Part shown: positions 5,600-13,039 of the stretch, one piece after another
Position numbering within the stretch: the stretch's first letter is position 1
Layout: each line of letters begins with the position of its first letter
Origin: Geoalkalibacter subterraneus
GTDB lineage: Bacteria > Desulfobacterota > Desulfuromonadia > Desulfuromonadales > Geoalkalibacteraceae
Reading direction: 5' to 3'
Assembly: GCF_000827125.1 (NCBI RefSeq)
Contig: NZ_CP010311.1
Location: forward strand, 2,935,001 to 2,999,000
Length of the DNA stretch: 64,000 nt
Notes under the pieces: generated by a model
Seen by the model: only the letters and a program-made list of their open reading frames with translations
Databases searched by the model: none
What the model was told of the DNA's origin: nothing
Translations under genes and position numbers: made by a program

Positions 5600-8134
5600 T
5601 CAGTCTTCACGCAGATAAACCGCCGGCTTCTGCCCCAGTGCCTTCCAGGTCCCCAGCAACCCCAGCGCCAGGGTCAGCAGGATGCCAGTGGCCAGGGTTC
5701 CCAGCACCGAAAGGGGATGCAGGCTGAATCGCACATCCATCAGCCCTTCCAGAATCCCGTAGGCCGCCGCCCCGCCCACCAGCAGGCTGATCACCCCGGC
5801 GGCCGCGCCGAGCAGCACAAATTCACTGGCTAAAGCACCGAGAATGTCACGCCGGGTGGCGCCGCACACCTTGAAGATCACCGCATCCTGGATGCGCCGA
5901 TGCTGGTCGGCCGACACCGCCCCCGCCAGCACCAGGAAGCCGCTGACCAGTGCCACCGCCGCCATGGCCCGGAACGCGGTGCCGAAACGCTCAAGGGTGC
6001 GTGACACGTTGGCCAGCACCTCCCGGACACCGATGGCGGACACATTGGGAAAACGGTCGATCACCTCGCGCAAAAGTTCCGTCTCCCGCTCCTGTGGCAC
6101 ATAGGCGGTCGCGATGGAGGTCTGGGGCGCCCCTTCAAGTACACCCGGGGAAAAAAGCAGGGCGAAATTGAGATTGAGAGTGGTCCAGTCCACCTCCCGC
6201 AGGCTGGCAATCTCAGCGGTAATATCGCGTCCGAGGATGTTGACCGTCAGTGTATCGCCGACACCGACCCCGAACCCTTCGGCCACATCGGCGGTCAGCG
6301 AAACCAGGGGCTCTCCCCGGTAGTCGGAAGGCCACCAGCGGCCGGCAGTCAGTTCAGTGCCGTGGGGAAGTCCCTCGGCATAACTCAGAAAACGGTCGCC
6401 GCGCACCGCCCACTGTACTTCGGGCGAGATGCGCGCCTCCTCCACCGGGGTGCCGTCGATCGCCACGATACGGCCGCGCAGTGTCGGAAATCGTTCGCTG
6501 CGCGCCAGACCGGGAAAGGCGTTCAGTGTCTCTTCAAAGGACGCCACCTGATCCGGCTGAATATCGAGAAAAAAGTAGGCGGGCGCGTCGTCGGGCACCG
6601 TATCGTCCACCAGCCGGGTGAGGCTTGCCTGCACCAGAACCACGATGACCAACGCGGTCAAACCGAGGCCAAGGGAGAAGACCGCGCTGCCCGCGGGGGA
6701 ACCGGGGCGGTGAATGTTGGCCAGCGCCAGACGCAGACTCGGCGACTTCGGGCGGGGCGCATGCCGCGCGCCCAGAATGACGAGCGCTGCCAGTCCCCGG
6801 AAAATAACAAAGCAGGCCAGCGCACCGGCAATAAACCACAGGGCCAGGCGCCGGTCGGAACTGGTCGCCACCGCCAGCAGAGCCAACCCCGTGGCGAACA
6901 CTCCGATAGCGACCCAGGTCCCTTTTCCCGGCGACATGCGCAGGGTGTCGACATAGCCCCGGAACAGGGCCGAAGGAGGCACGCGCCGTGCGACGCCCAA
7001 CGCCTTCAGGGAAAACACCAGAGCGATCAGCAGCCCGAACAGGGCCGCGCTGAGCAGCGGACCGGGATAGAGCCCCGAACGCAACGGCAGCGGCAGGGCT
7101 TCTCCCGCCAGCTTCACGGCGATCCACGGGACGGCCGCGCCTGCCGCCAGTCCGGCAGCGGCGCCCAGAGCGCCGAGGACCAGCACCTGCAGCAGATAGG
7201 CGGTAAAAATCACCCTGCCGCCGGCGCCGACGCATTTCATGGCGGCGATATGGAACACCTTGCCGTCGAGATAACCCCTTACCGCGCCCGCTACGCCGAC
7301 GCCGCCCACCAGCAGGGCGCACAACCCGACCAGGGTCAGGTTGAGGGTCATGCGCTCGATCATCATGCGCACTCGCGGCGCGGCTTCTTTCCAGGTCCGC
7401 AGACGCCAGCCAGCGTCGGGAAAGCGTTTCTGCAGCTCGCTTTTCAGCTTTTCGACATCGGCTTCGGGGGAAAGGCGCAGGCGGTAGGAATAAGTCACCA
7501 GGCTTCCAGGCTGCAGCAGACCGGTGGCATCAAGAGCCGCACGGCTCACCAGCAGCCGCGGGCCCAGAGTGAAAGCCTGTATGGAGCGATCCGGCTCATG
7601 GGTCAGCACGCCGCGGATGCGAAATCGGGCCTCGCCGAGAAGGATCTCGTCACCCACCTGCACATTAAGGCGTTCCAGCAACGCCCGTTCCACAAGGGCC
7701 CCGAACAGGCCGTCGCTGCTCTGCGCCAGCGCCGCCGACAACTCAAGCGGCGGCTCGCTGACGACCCGGCCATGCAGCGGATAAGCCTGGTCGACGGCTT
7801 TCACTTCCACCAGCAGCCGTTGGTCGACCGAGGGCGCACGCGCCATGGCCCGCAGGTCCGCCACCTGGGAAACATCGCCGGCAGCTGTAAAAAACTGCTG
7901 CTGCGCCTCGCTCATCTCGCGATGGTTGAGGCGCGCCTCAAGATCGCCGCCAAGCAGAGCCCGGGCATCGGTCAACAGTCCGGAACGGGCAGCAGCAGAA
8001 AAAGACCCCACCGCGCTGATGGCGAAAACGCCGAGAAACAGGCACGCGAGAAAGACGCCGAAACCGCGCAGCCCGCCGCGCAGTTCCCGCCGCGCGATAC
8101 GCCAGGCCTGGGGCAGCAGAGGCGGAGAGTTCAT
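5600..8134 (-). CDS. ybbP: ABC transporter permease, FtsX/YbbP family
   Basis: This is a large inner-membrane permease (844 aa) of the MacB/FtsX-like group, with two FtsX domains and about ten membrane segments. The N-terminal segment (FGVFLACLFLGVFAISAVG) is followed by a large periplasmic domain to about residue 250. Membrane segments follow around 260-390, 405-455 and 480-505, then a second periplasmic domain, then three C-terminal helices. Its start overlaps the stop of the ATPase gene by 4 bp (ATGA), so the two are translationally coupled. With YbbA it forms an ABC system next to tesA, as in many proteobacteria. The substrate is not established. Confidence 0.9.
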   Translation of the reverse strand: MNSPPLLPQAWRIARRELRGGLRGFGVFLACLFLGVFAISAVGSFSAAARSGLLTDARALLGGDLEARLNHREMSEAQQQFFTAAGDVSQVADLRAMARAPSVDQRLLVEVKAVDQAYPLHGRVVSEPPLELSAALAQSSDGLFGALVERALLERLNVQVGDEILLGEARFRIRGVLTHEPDRSIQAFTLGPRLLVSRAALDATGLLQPGSLVTYSYRLRLSPEADVEKLKSELQKRFPDAGWRLRTWKEAAPRVRMMIERMTLNLTLVGLCALLVGGVGVAGAVRGYLDGKVFHIAAMKCVGAGGRVIFTAYLLQVLVLGALGAAAGLAAGAAVPWIAVKLAGEALPLPLRSGLYPGPLLSAALFGLLIALVFSLKALGVARRVPPSALFRGYVDTLRMSPGKGTWVAIGVFATGLALLAVATSSDRRLALWFIAGALACFVIFRGLAALVILGARHAPRPKSPSLRLALANIHRPGSPAGSAVFSLGLGLTALVIVVLVQASLTRLVDDTVPDDAPAYFFLDIQPDQVASFEETLNAFPGLARSERFPTLRGRIVAIDGTPVEEARISPEVQWAVRGDRFLSYAEGLPHGTELTAGRWWPSDYRGEPLVSLTADVAEGFGVGVGDTLTVNILGRDITAEIASLREVDWTTLNLNFALLFSPGVLEGAPQTSIATAYVPQERETELLREVIDRFPNVSAIGVREVLANVSRTLERFGTAFRAMAAVALVSGFLVLAGAVSADQHRRIQDAVIFKVCGATRRDILGALASEFVLLGAAAGVISLLVGGAAAYGILEGLMDVRFSLHPLSVLGTLATGILLTLALGLLGTWKALGQKPAVYLRED

Positions 8135-8820
8135 GACGGACTCCTGGTGCTTTCAAGCAGGCGCCCGTCCACCATCTGCAGGCGGCGGGTGCAGCGCGCC
8201 GACAACCGCTCATCGTGGGTGACCAGAATGAGGGTGGTCCCCTGCTCAGCCTGCAGCCGGAACAGAAGATCCATCACCCTCTCGCCCGTTTCCAGGTCCA
8301 GGTTGCCGGTCGGTTCATCCGCCAGGATCAGGGACGGATTGGCAACAAAAGCCCGCGCCAGAGCCACACGCTGCTGTTCTCCCCCGGAAAGCTGGCCGGG
8401 GAAATGGTCGACGCGCTCCTGCAGCCCCACGGCAGTCAGAGCTTCAAGAGCACGCGGCTGCGCATCCTGTTCGCCGGCAAACTCCAGCGGCAAGGCCGCG
8501 TTCTCCAGTGCGGTCATGGTCGGCACCAGGTGAAAGGACTGAAAAACAATGCCGACATGCTCGCGCCGGAAGCGGGCCAGCTCATCCTCGTCAAGACCGG
8601 CAAGATCGACTCCGGCAACCCGGATACGGCCGGCCGTGGCACGCTCCAGCCCCGACACCGCCATCAGCAGGGTTGTCTTTCCCGCTCCCGAAGGTCCGAC
8701 GATGCTCAGGGTCTCACCGCGCGCCACCTCCAGATCGACGCCGCGCAATATGTTGACCCGACCGCCGCCGCCGACTAAACTCAATTGCAGATCTTTCAAC
8801 TCCACGATGGATTGCGACAT
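8131..8820 (-). CDS. ybbA: ABC transporter ATP-binding protein, YbbA/LolD family
   Basis: This cytoplasmic ATPase subunit (229 aa) partners the YbbP permease. Walker A GPSGAGKTT, signature LSGGEQQRVALARA, Walker B LILADEPTGNLD and the H-loop VTHDE are all intact. The start at 8820 is chosen because the protein then begins MSQSIVELKDL, standard for the family, with a GAAAGG site upstream; the longer frame is the antisense of tesA. The start codon overlaps that of the divergent tesA by 2 bp. The pair may move lipids or hydrophobic molecules, but that is inference from family. Confidence 0.93.
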   Translation of the reverse strand: MSQSIVELKDLQLSLVGGGGRVNILRGVDLEVARGETLSIVGPSGAGKTTLLMAVSGLERATAGRIRVAGVDLAGLDEDELARFRREHVGIVFQSFHLVPTMTALENAALPLEFAGEQDAQPRALEALTAVGLQERVDHFPGQLSGGEQQRVALARAFVANPSLILADEPTGNLDLETGERVMDLLFRLQAEQGTTLILVTHDERLSARCTRRLQMVDGRLLESTRSPS

Positions 8821-9496
8821 GATGACCTTTCTTTTTCGATTTTTATTGCTGCTGTCACTGGTTGCGCCCTCTCCCACCATCAGCCATGCTGCTTCGCAGG
8901 GCGATTCCCCTCTGCATCTCCTGGTACTCGGCGACAGCCTCACTGCCGGCTACGGGCTTGCCTCTCAGCAGGCGTTTCCCGCCCGGCTCGAGCAGGCCCT
9001 GCAGGAACGAGGTTGGCCGGTCAGGGTCACCAACGCCGGCGTCTCGGGCAGCACCACATCAGGGGGACTGGCTCGCCTGGAGTGGAATCTGGCCGACAAG
9101 CCGGACCTGGTGCTGGTGGAACTTGGCGCCAACGATGCCCTGCGCGGCCTCGATCCGGCCCGCACCGAGGCGAACCTCGACGCCATCCTGACCCTGGTGA
9201 AAGACCGCGGCGCCTATCCGATTCTGGCAGGCATGAAGGCGCCGCGCAATCTCGGGCGCAATTATACCGAATCCTTCGACCGGATCTACCCGCGTCTGGC
9301 GGAAAAACATGCGGCCCCCCTCTATCCTTTTTTTCTTGAGGGAGTGGCGGGAAAGGCCGAACTCAACCTTGAGGACGGCATCCACCCCAATGAGCGCGGA
9401 GTGGATGTCATTGTGGCGGGAATCACACCCGTTGTAGAACGAGCCCTTGCCGAGGTCTGCCGTGCGCAGAACCGCGACGATTGCCGTAAAGACTGA
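8819..9496 (+). CDS. tesA: Periplasmic acyl-CoA thioesterase I / lysophospholipase L1 (SGNH hydrolase)
   Basis: This is a GDSL/SGNH esterase, exported, that hydrolyses acyl thioesters and lysophospholipids. It is 225 aa. A signal peptide (FLFRFLLLLSLVAPSPTISHA) is followed by block I GDSLTAGYGL with the nucleophilic Ser, a block II glycine (NAGVSGSTTSGG), block III GANDALRG with the oxyanion Asn, and block V DGIHPNERG with the catalytic Asp and His. Two tandem ATGs (8819 and 8822) could start it; neither has a strong ribosome site, and an ATG at 8807 is also possible. It is divergent from ybbA, a conserved arrangement. Confidence 0.93.
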   Translation: MMTFLFRFLLLLSLVAPSPTISHAASQGDSPLHLLVLGDSLTAGYGLASQQAFPARLEQALQERGWPVRVTNAGVSGSTTSGGLARLEWNLADKPDLVLVELGANDALRGLDPARTEANLDAILTLVKDRGAYPILAGMKAPRNLGRNYTESFDRIYPRLAEKHAAPLYPFFLEGVAGKAELNLEDGIHPNERGVDVIVAGITPVVERALAEVCRAQNRDDCRKD

Positions 9497-11019: not shown

Positions 11020-11895
11020 ATGGTTCAACAACCGCTGCTGCAGCTGGATTCATTGACCAAGAGCTACCGGGAGGGCGACAGCCTGCGTACGGTGTTCAGC
11101 GGTCTCAGCGCCTCTTTCCTCTCGGGCGAATGCGTGGCGCTGCTCGGGCGCAGCGGTTCGGGCAAATCGACCCTGCTCAACCTGATCAGCGGAATCGATC
11201 GGCCCGACGCCGGGGATATCATTTTTGACAATGTTCAGCTCAACCGGCTCAGCGAACACGAGCGCACCCTGTTCCGGCGTCACCATATCGGCTTCGTCTT
11301 CCAGTTTTTCAACCTGATCGGCACCCTGACGGTGCGCGAAAACCTGCTGCTGCCGCTGGAGCTGACGGGGAAACTGACCGCTGATCGCAAACAGCGGGTC
11401 GACCATATGCTGGCGGAGGTCGGTTTGGCCGACCGGGGAGAGAGCTTCCCCGACCGCCTGTCCGGCGGCGAACAGCAGCGGGTGGCGATCGCCAGGGCGC
11501 TGATCCATCAGCCCCGCCTGGTTCTGGCCGACGAGCCGACCGGCAACCTCGATGCCGAAACAGGCAACCAGGTGCTGGCGCTGCTCGAGCGCACCACCCG
11601 CAAGGCTGGACACGCCATGATCCTGATCACCCACAGCGCCGAAATTGCCGCCCACGCCGATCGCAGGGCTGCTGGCCTTGCCGCTGGGGATCATCCAGGC
11701 TCTGGTACTGATTCTGGTCATCAACCGCCGCTCTTTCGGCTGGACCATGCAGACCTCCATCACGGGCGACATCCTGTGGCAGGCGATTCTTCTGGCCGTC
11801 GGCGCTGCCGTGCTGGCCGGCATTTATCCCACTTGGCGCATGGCCCGTTCAGCCCCTGCGCTGGCGTTGCGGGAGAAGTGAAGCATGTCTGGTAA
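11020..11895 (+). pseudogene. LolD-like ABC ATPase, C-terminus replaced by a deletion junction
   Basis: Residues 1 to about 213 are a normal LolD/MacB-type ATPase: Walker A GRSGSGKST, Q-loop VFQFFNLI, signature LSGGEQQRVAIARA, Walker B LVLADEPTGNLD and H-loop LITHS. After AEIAAHADR the frame enters sequence that in another frame encodes the end of an FtsX permease, so the last 75 or so residues are out-of-frame junk. The catalytic core is intact but the usual C-terminal few residues and the partner permease are gone. The start at 11020 has a GAAAGACGA site upstream. I class it as broken; a residual ATPase could still be made. Confidence 0.75.
11664..11881 (+). pseudogene. C-terminal remnant of an FtsX-family ABC permease
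   Basis: In the frame offset from the ATPase, the sequence reads GLLALPLGIIQALVLILV and continues through two hydrophobic segments to a WRMARSAPALALREK ending. That is the last two membrane segments and tail of an FtsX permease. Only about 70 of an expected 780 or more residues remain, and there is no start or ribosome site. The remnant ends 3 bp before the attH start, as an intact permease gene would in an ATPase-permease-attH operon. Confidence 0.8.
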
Positions 11896-13039
11896 ATTCT
11901 CCGCTTTATTCATCCTGATGGTGCTCTTCCCCCTGTGCACTGCAGCGGGCTGTCGCTTCTCTGAAAAAAAAGAGTCTGCTTCTTCCCGGCTGGAAGTCGG
12001 GCGCACCCTGGGCGCAGAAGAAGACACCGGCTATGCCCGCGCCCTGGAACCCCGTGGATTCGCGTTCCCCCGCGATCATGGCCCGCACCCCGACTTCAAA
12101 ACCGAATGGTGGTACTACACCGGCAACCTCGAGGATGAAGAAGGGCGGCGCTTCGGCTACCAGCTGACCTTCTTCCGCGTCGCCCTGGCTCCACAGCCGA
12201 TTCGCCGTTCCTCGAACTGGGGGGCCCGCCAGGCCTACATGGCCCATTTCGCTCTCACCGACGTTGCCGGCGATCGCTTTTTCTACGATGAACGCTTTTC
12301 CCGCGGAGCCATGGGCCTCGCCGGAGCCGAGAGCGTTCCGTTTCACGTCTGGCTGGAAGACTGGCAGGCGAGGGGACCGGCGGAAACCTTCCCTACAGAA
12401 CTGTCCGCAAGCACGGATACAGCAGCCATTGATCTGTCTCTGCGACAGGGCAAGCCGGTGGTTCTTCAGGGGGAAAAGGGCCTGAGTCAAAAAAGTGCCG
12501 AGGCGGGCAATGCCAGCTATTACTATTCGCTGACCCGCATGCCCACGCAAGGCCGAATCAGGATCGAGGGAAAGCAGTACGAGGTCCGCGGCAGCAGCTG
12601 GCTGGACCGGGAATGGAGCACCAGCGCCCTGGCTGCCGACCAGCAGGGGTGGGACTGGTTCGCCCTGCAGAGCGACGATGGGCACGAATTGATGTACTAC
12701 CAGCTGCGCCGCCAGGACGGATCGGCAGACCCGGCCAGTCGCGGCGTGCTGGTTACCCCCGACGGCAGCACCCTCCCCCTGCTGGGCGAGCAGCTTCAAC
12801 TGGTGGCAACTTCCCGTTGGCGAAGCCCCCGCGGCGGGAGCTATCCTTCAGCCTGGCGAATGAAAGTGCCGGATCAGGATCTTGAACTGCAGATCACTCC
12901 CCTGCTTTCCGACCAGGAGCTTGACGTAACGATACGCTACTGGGAAGGCGCGGTGCGTTTTTCTGGGCACTACGGAGAGCGCCCCCTTACCGGATACGGC
13001 TATGTGGAATTGACCGGTTATGCCAAGGACAACCGCTGA
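11885..13039 (+). CDS. AttH/CrtC-family lipocalin-like lipoprotein
   Basis: The 384-aa product has a lipoprotein signal (FSALFILMVLFPLCTAAGC, lipobox TAAGC at about residue 22), so it is probably anchored in an envelope membrane. The body carries AttH-family hallmarks: FPRDHGPHPDFKTEWWYYTGNL near residues 59-80, a WLDREWS motif near 239, and GWDWFALQ near 253. Proteins of this kind are often encoded with an ATPase and FtsX permease, as here before the deletion. It may be a hydrolase/isomerase-fold partner of that transporter, but the substrate is unknown. The gene itself looks intact. Confidence 0.85.
   Translation: MSGKFSALFILMVLFPLCTAAGCRFSEKKESASSRLEVGRTLGAEEDTGYARALEPRGFAFPRDHGPHPDFKTEWWYYTGNLEDEEGRRFGYQLTFFRVALAPQPIRRSSNWGARQAYMAHFALTDVAGDRFFYDERFSRGAMGLAGAESVPFHVWLEDWQARGPAETFPTELSASTDTAAIDLSLRQGKPVVLQGEKGLSQKSAEAGNASYYYSLTRMPTQGRIRIEGKQYEVRGSSWLDREWSTSALAADQQGWDWFALQSDDGHELMYYQLRRQDGSADPASRGVLVTPDGSTLPLLGEQLQLVATSRWRSPRGGSYPSAWRMKVPDQDLELQITPLLSDQELDVTIRYWEGAVRFSGHYGERPLTGYGYVELTGYAKDNR

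Follow-up and report, generated by a model that had tools for sequence, protein, structure and literature searches.

A probable recent internal deletion in an ATPase–permease–attH operon of Geoalkalibacter subterraneus Red1

Genes and gene remnants at the locus

Geoalkalibacter subterraneus Red1 is a metal-reducing bacterium. We analysed a window of 64,000 nucleotides from this genome (G000:C1:2935001-2999000, where G000 is Red1), and positions below are those of the window unless another contig is named. The genome totals 3,717,645 bp, divided between a chromosome of 3,475,523 bp and a megaplasmid of 242,122 bp (PMC4357744).

The first gene of interest is the remnant of an ABC ATPase gene on the plus strand (11020-11664), which matched the ABC ATPase family PF00005 with 124.7 bits in a Pfam search. 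The residues that we take to be Walker A, the signature, Walker B, the D-loop and the H-loop can be read in this stretch, and it contains no stop or frameshift. The catalytic core is thus kept through the H-loop, as the initial annotation stated, and through an Ala-Asp-Arg; approximately the last 14 native codons and the stop are gone. From there the ATPase frame runs on, still on the plus strand, through an out-of-frame extension (11665-11895) of 76 non-homologous codons and a stop (11893-11895) that ends 11 nt into attH. Homologous permease tails, that of Red1 among them, leave this frame open in 11 of 11 cases, so its openness in Red1 means nothing. When the fused ORF of 291 aa was modelled with AlphaFold2 together with 12 relatives, a nucleotide-binding domain was predicted with confidence to approximately residue 219; residues 220-291 had low confidence and the extension was predicted to be disordered. 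For these two reasons, the shared open frame and the disorder in the model, we rejected a meaningful fusion protein as the main reading.

The ATPase stub gene is probably dead. It is exceedingly doubtful that the 291-aa protein is still made and serves another FtsX-type permease of the cell. The confidently modelled domain and the kept catalytic motifs would be compatible with such a role, but the native C-terminus is gone and the residues that replace it appear disordered in the model. Moreover, the stub is not evidently needed because the Red1 genome encodes five other ATPases of the same group (209-258 bits).

The second remnant is the 3' end of an FtsX/MacB-type permease gene on the plus strand (11660-11881). 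It consists of the last 73 codons (11660-11878), which encode two hydrophobic segments, and the stop at 11879-11881. Its frame differs from that of the ATPase, which bears out the earlier description of an out-of-frame join to the last segments of a permease. Against the FtsX family PF02687 the remnant scored 22.5 bits (E=1.2e-4), just under the Pfam cut-off of 25.5, and over the aligned part it is 65.8-77.8% identical to the permease ends in 10 of 10 loci of the order. The sole in-frame upstream start listed for it is a TTG at 11645, which has no evident ribosome-binding site.

A complete FtsX/MacB permease of the attH-operon family is absent from Red1; what remains covers positions 776-847 of the 848 in the permease profile, at 98 bits. 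Searching the whole genome with a same-family permease from which the tail had been removed gave three partial matches with 28-33% identity, and a 12-row permease profile (A2) gave none at 1e-30, also across the whole genome. A looser search with A2, in which all 12 candidates were scored, returned the 98-bit tail and five stretches of paralogues, none above 82 bits. We therefore rejected the idea that the middle of the permease had moved elsewhere or to the megaplasmid, as the two contigs together gave the tail and weak paralogues alone.

The attH gene starts 3 nt past the permease stop and is intact (11885-13039, plus strand). It encodes an AttH/CrtC-lipocalin (DUF2006) protein of 384 aa, in which a Cys close to the N-terminus lies in a lipobox-like setting. 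Both lipocalin-like domains are full length (PF07143, 1-168 of 168; PF17186, 1-131 of 131) and the protein matches PDB 2ICH with E=5e-57, in agreement with the earlier claim that attH was left whole. Judged by eye, the lipobox-like Cys in the N-terminus (11885-11960) is shared by Red1 and the four loci of its sister genus (L099-L102). By the same inspection, AttH has no evident lipobox Cys in the order's remaining six loci (L103-L108), where it seemingly bears either an anchor that is not cleaved or an ordinary signal peptide.

Near the broken operon, at 5600-9496, lies a set of genes resembling YbbAP-TesA. It comprises a YbbP-like permease (NF041854, 282.7 bits, under the cut-off of 999), a YbbA-like ATPase (NF007879, 258.4 bits, under the cut-off of 336) and a divergent, TesA-like GDSL esterase.

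Comparison with intact operons

AttH is present in 11 of the 58 genomes of an order-level set, Red1 included. The ATPase, permease and attH genes are consecutive in all seven relatives in which a contig spans the operon. In these seven loci the ATPase has 234-239 aa; the permease has 847 aa in L099-L102 and L108 and 846 aa in L105. Three further loci (L103, L104 and L107) are cut off by a contig end, either within the permease or shortly ahead of it, and were left out of the spacing comparison. The closest match is the operon of the sister genus (G001, G003, G004 and G005), where gene order and strand are as in Red1. Over the aligned part, these operons are 67-69% identical to Red1 in the ATPase and 73-78% in the permease tail. 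They encode a full ATPase of 235 aa and a permease of 847 aa, and it is relative to them that 2,368 bp are missing from Red1.

The size of the loss follows from the distance between the THS of the H-loop and the last permease codon. This distance is 250 nt in Red1 and 2,618 nt in four of four same-family loci (L099, L100, L101 and L102); elsewhere it is 2,633 nt in L105, 2,612 nt in L106 and 2,636 nt in L108. Set against the four same-family loci, Red1 is without approximately the last 14 ATPase codons and the first 774 permease codons. Since 2,368 bp is a multiple of three plus one, the join is out of frame. The initial annotation had proposed one internal deletion of more than 2 kb with its break points in the 3' ends of the ATPase and permease genes, and the near-constant spacing in the seven complete relatives agrees with this.

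The junction itself is marked by the five bases TCGCA (11661-11665), which fit both the ATPase and the permease sequence on the two sides, reading as ATPase ...GATCGCA and as permease ...TCGCAGG. At this register, two to five bases are common to ATPase and permease in the seven relatives by eye, with five in L102. A long repeat was sought between 10760 and 13100 and none was found; the direct repeats of at least 16 nt in this interval are a 26-nt pair (81%) and an 18-nt pair (94%). Judging from the junction sequence, the deletion probably arose by a short-homology mechanism, with which a microhomology of up to 5 nt is compatible. The initial annotation had suggested looking for short homology at the break points.

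The same features bear on whether the deletion is an artefact, namely an assembly error or a mixed population in which the real chromosome still carries the permease. We consider this very unlikely. The locus lacks a long repeat, its two direct repeats are imperfect, and an assembly that misses a unique 2.4 kb normally leaves the contig broken or extended. The history of the strain offers some room for doubt: the DSMZ stock of Red1 was contaminated and PacBio sequencing was done on a re-isolate, which makes a clone-specific variant possible (PMC4357744). Against this, the assembly was produced de novo by HGAP from PacBio reads at 250x with three Quiver passes and was further polished with Pilon and 100x Illumina reads to give a finished genome (PMC4357744). 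An assembly error is unlikely because the genome was finished with both types of reads.

Co-occurrence of attH and the permease

To place the Red1 locus among others, we compiled a neighbourhood census of 90 loci: 10 came from the order, and the others were the best 80 among 131 confirmed public loci. The permease was called at 200 bits with an HMM iterated from the relatives. Sequence of 3 kb or more upstream of attH was available for 73 loci; the permease was just upstream in 43 of them, otherwise placed in three and absent from the available flanks in 27. Taken alone, the last number could be read as AttH often standing alone. We rejected this reading because whole-genome searches for 16 of these 27 loci, chosen as having at least 5 kb on both sides, found a full-length permease elsewhere in 16 of 16 genomes (672-982 bits). 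At locus L070 (5165-7140), an ABC ATPase gene lies directly 5' of attH with no FtsX permease between, and a full-length permease is found elsewhere in the genome (784 bits); here the same parts are arranged differently.

In the 58-genome set of the order, the permease was found in 10 of the 11 genomes with attH, and Red1 is the exception. Two of the 10 permeases (G002 and G056) are shortened by a contig end. Among genomes scored as lacking attH, the permease of G033 stops 127 bp before the contig end, where attH would follow, and two others gave 107-108 bits over part of the permease profile and appear paralogue-like.

We also examined a phylum sample of 297 genomes with thresholds of at least 300 bits for attH and at least 250 bits for the permease. 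Here attH was found in 57 genomes, the permease in 64 and both in 50 (Fisher p=5e-36, with species treated as independent). Red1 is one of the seven genomes with attH alone. In three of the others (G222, G247 and G307), attH lies less than 900 bp from a contig edge on the upstream side. The remaining three (G103, G105 and G160) have attH at 305-347 bits, no permease on a full re-search and no obvious contig-edge excuse. The number of permease genomes without a strong attH was 14 of 64. The pairing is thus not absolute, given these 14 and the three of 57 genomes with attH alone and no edge excuse. Lowering the attH cut-off to 100 bits gave 16 of 66 genomes without the permease, the additional nine scoring 108-225 bits. 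In one of the genomes with attH alone, two tandem attH genes lie on one strand (L128; G105:C28:3776-6044); this genome is rated 100% complete and its best permease match is 67 bits.

Some limits apply to these counts. The permease search of the phylum sample scored three candidates per genome, so misses are possible; seven genomes were given a full second search. Of the 16 genomes searched in the census, at least two recur in the phylum sample at identical places with identical scores, which makes the two counts non-independent. The top attH score of Red1 carries no weight as evidence, because the query profile (A3) includes the Red1 AttH as one of its rows. The strong co-occurrence of AttH and the permease, even where they are unlinked, makes it very probable that the two belong to a single functional system. 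We regard this co-occurrence of AttH with a double-FtsX permease as a more useful result than the deletion, with Red1 as a natural permease-null.

Relation to known systems

The initial annotation called the ATPase LolD-like. As a statement of resemblance this holds, with a score of 214 bits over positions 1-211 of the 221 in the LolD profile TIGR02211, yet the LolD cut-off of 307.75 is not reached; nor is that of NF008639 (200.5 bits; cut-off 360). These scores were obtained with the shortened ATPase of Red1, which leaves just the last 10-18 profile positions absent. LolCDE has LolC and LolE as permeases. The relatives, by contrast, have a single permease of approximately 847 aa and AttH as the partner. 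By sequence, then, the ATPase is LolD-like but not LolD, and the operon is one of ATPase, double-FtsX permease and AttH, not LolCDE. The name 'LolD-like ATPase', if annotated here, would sit on a broken gene.

A second comparison is with YbbAP-TesA, presented in the portion of PMC12646458 consulted as a Type VII (MacB-type) ABC lipid hydrolase complex in which hydrophobic compounds are extracted for hydrolysis. Type VII ABC transporters are described, in the excerpts used here, as acting with a partner protein to do mechanical work in the periplasm (PMC12646458, PMC5985334). The attH operon is similar in having separate genes for an ATPase, a permease and a periplasmic partner, and the intact permease of L101, with two FtsX and two MacB_PCD stretches, resembles a fused double-unit YbbP. 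It differs in that its partner is AttH, not TesA.

The AttH protein of Nitrosomonas europaea, NE1406 (PDB 2ICH), is double lipocalin-like and, according to the parts of its report drawn on here, has a proposed role in lipid metabolism (PMC2954199). Like the protein studied here it is a two-domain lipocalin-like AttH, and the same parts place a LolD-named ATPase and ABC genes in its genome context (PMC2954199). That context, however, was drawn from STRING, and those parts describe no comparable deletion (PMC2954199). Among the matches listed for AttH-transporter function, this paper alone was judged directly relevant; AttEFGH is mentioned three times in PMC4338557 and AttH twice in PMC4051167. 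By analogy with YbbAP-TesA and other Type VII (MacB-type) ABC systems, the intact transporter probably took a lipid-like molecule out of the inner membrane, moving or presenting it with AttH as its partner.

Decay of the remnants and retention of attH

Because the permease is missing, the AttH system cannot work in Red1. It is probable that a single deletion of 2,368 bp in the Red1 lineage broke the operon, that the transporter is dead, and that the loss is recent and attH has not yet decayed. The relatives show the ancestral ATPase–permease–attH order, and comparison with them gives the size and place of the loss and the shift of frame. The event was probably illegitimate recombination, or slippage during replication, at a few matching bases; it cost the ATPase gene its 3' end and the permease gene approximately its first 774 codons. 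The transporter would have been dead afterwards. The loss would be recent relative to the split from the sister genera, and attH would persist as not yet decayed, possibly still expressed with its partner gone.

The condition of the remnants bears on this timing. They have no stop or indel and retain most conserved residues. Compared with the invariant columns of relatives, the Red1 ATPase departs from eight of 103, all conservatively. This is the most among eight sequences (0-6 in the seven relatives), with the non-sister relatives L105, L106 and L108 at two, six and five. The Red1 permease tail departs from three of 32 (zero, three and seven in L105, L106 and L108), and Red1 AttH from two of 136 (two, four and 10 in the same loci). 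On a fixed tree of eight taxa, the terminal branch of Red1 accounts for 17.9% of the total length for the remnants and 11.9% for AttH. The resulting ratio of 1.5, calculated by hand, is the largest of the eight taxa, the others having 0.7-1.3. These sequence comparisons suggest that the remnants may be slightly relaxed, with no plain decay; such a possible relaxation of constraint means that the loss may not be very recent.

The initial annotation left it as an either/or whether attH has a function without the transporter or the loss is recent. Of the two, the second stood up better and the first is kept as the lesser option. It is unlikely that the loss is old and that AttH was kept because it functions in the absence of its own transporter, either by itself or with a different Type VII transporter. 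Such a history would account for the retention of 134 of 136 invariant residues in an intact attH, for the three of 57 attH genomes that lack the permease without a contig-edge excuse and for the slightly long terminal branch of the remnants, and a candidate partner is encoded 1.5-5.4 kb away in the YbbAP-TesA-like set. It is harder to reconcile with the strong co-occurrence of attH and the permease, with remnants free of stops and indels, and with the conservative nature of the ATPase changes at invariant sites. Co-occurrence and little-decayed remnants fit a recent loss better than a long-standing solo role of AttH, and the sequence evidence as a whole favours recent loss over an independent role.

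It is commonplace for a gene to be lost through a single internal deletion. We regard the Red1 case as probably an ordinary, recent gene loss, notable mainly because attH seldom occurs without the permease. It is highly improbable that AttH survived the loss of its transporter because a different Type VII ABC system, such as the neighbouring YbbAP-TesA-like set, took it over; if this were true, Red1 would be a natural experiment in partner swapping. The sister-genus loci have an opposite-strand ABC ATPase gene upstream, at the place of the YbbA-like gene of Red1, in the three of four loci that reach far enough.
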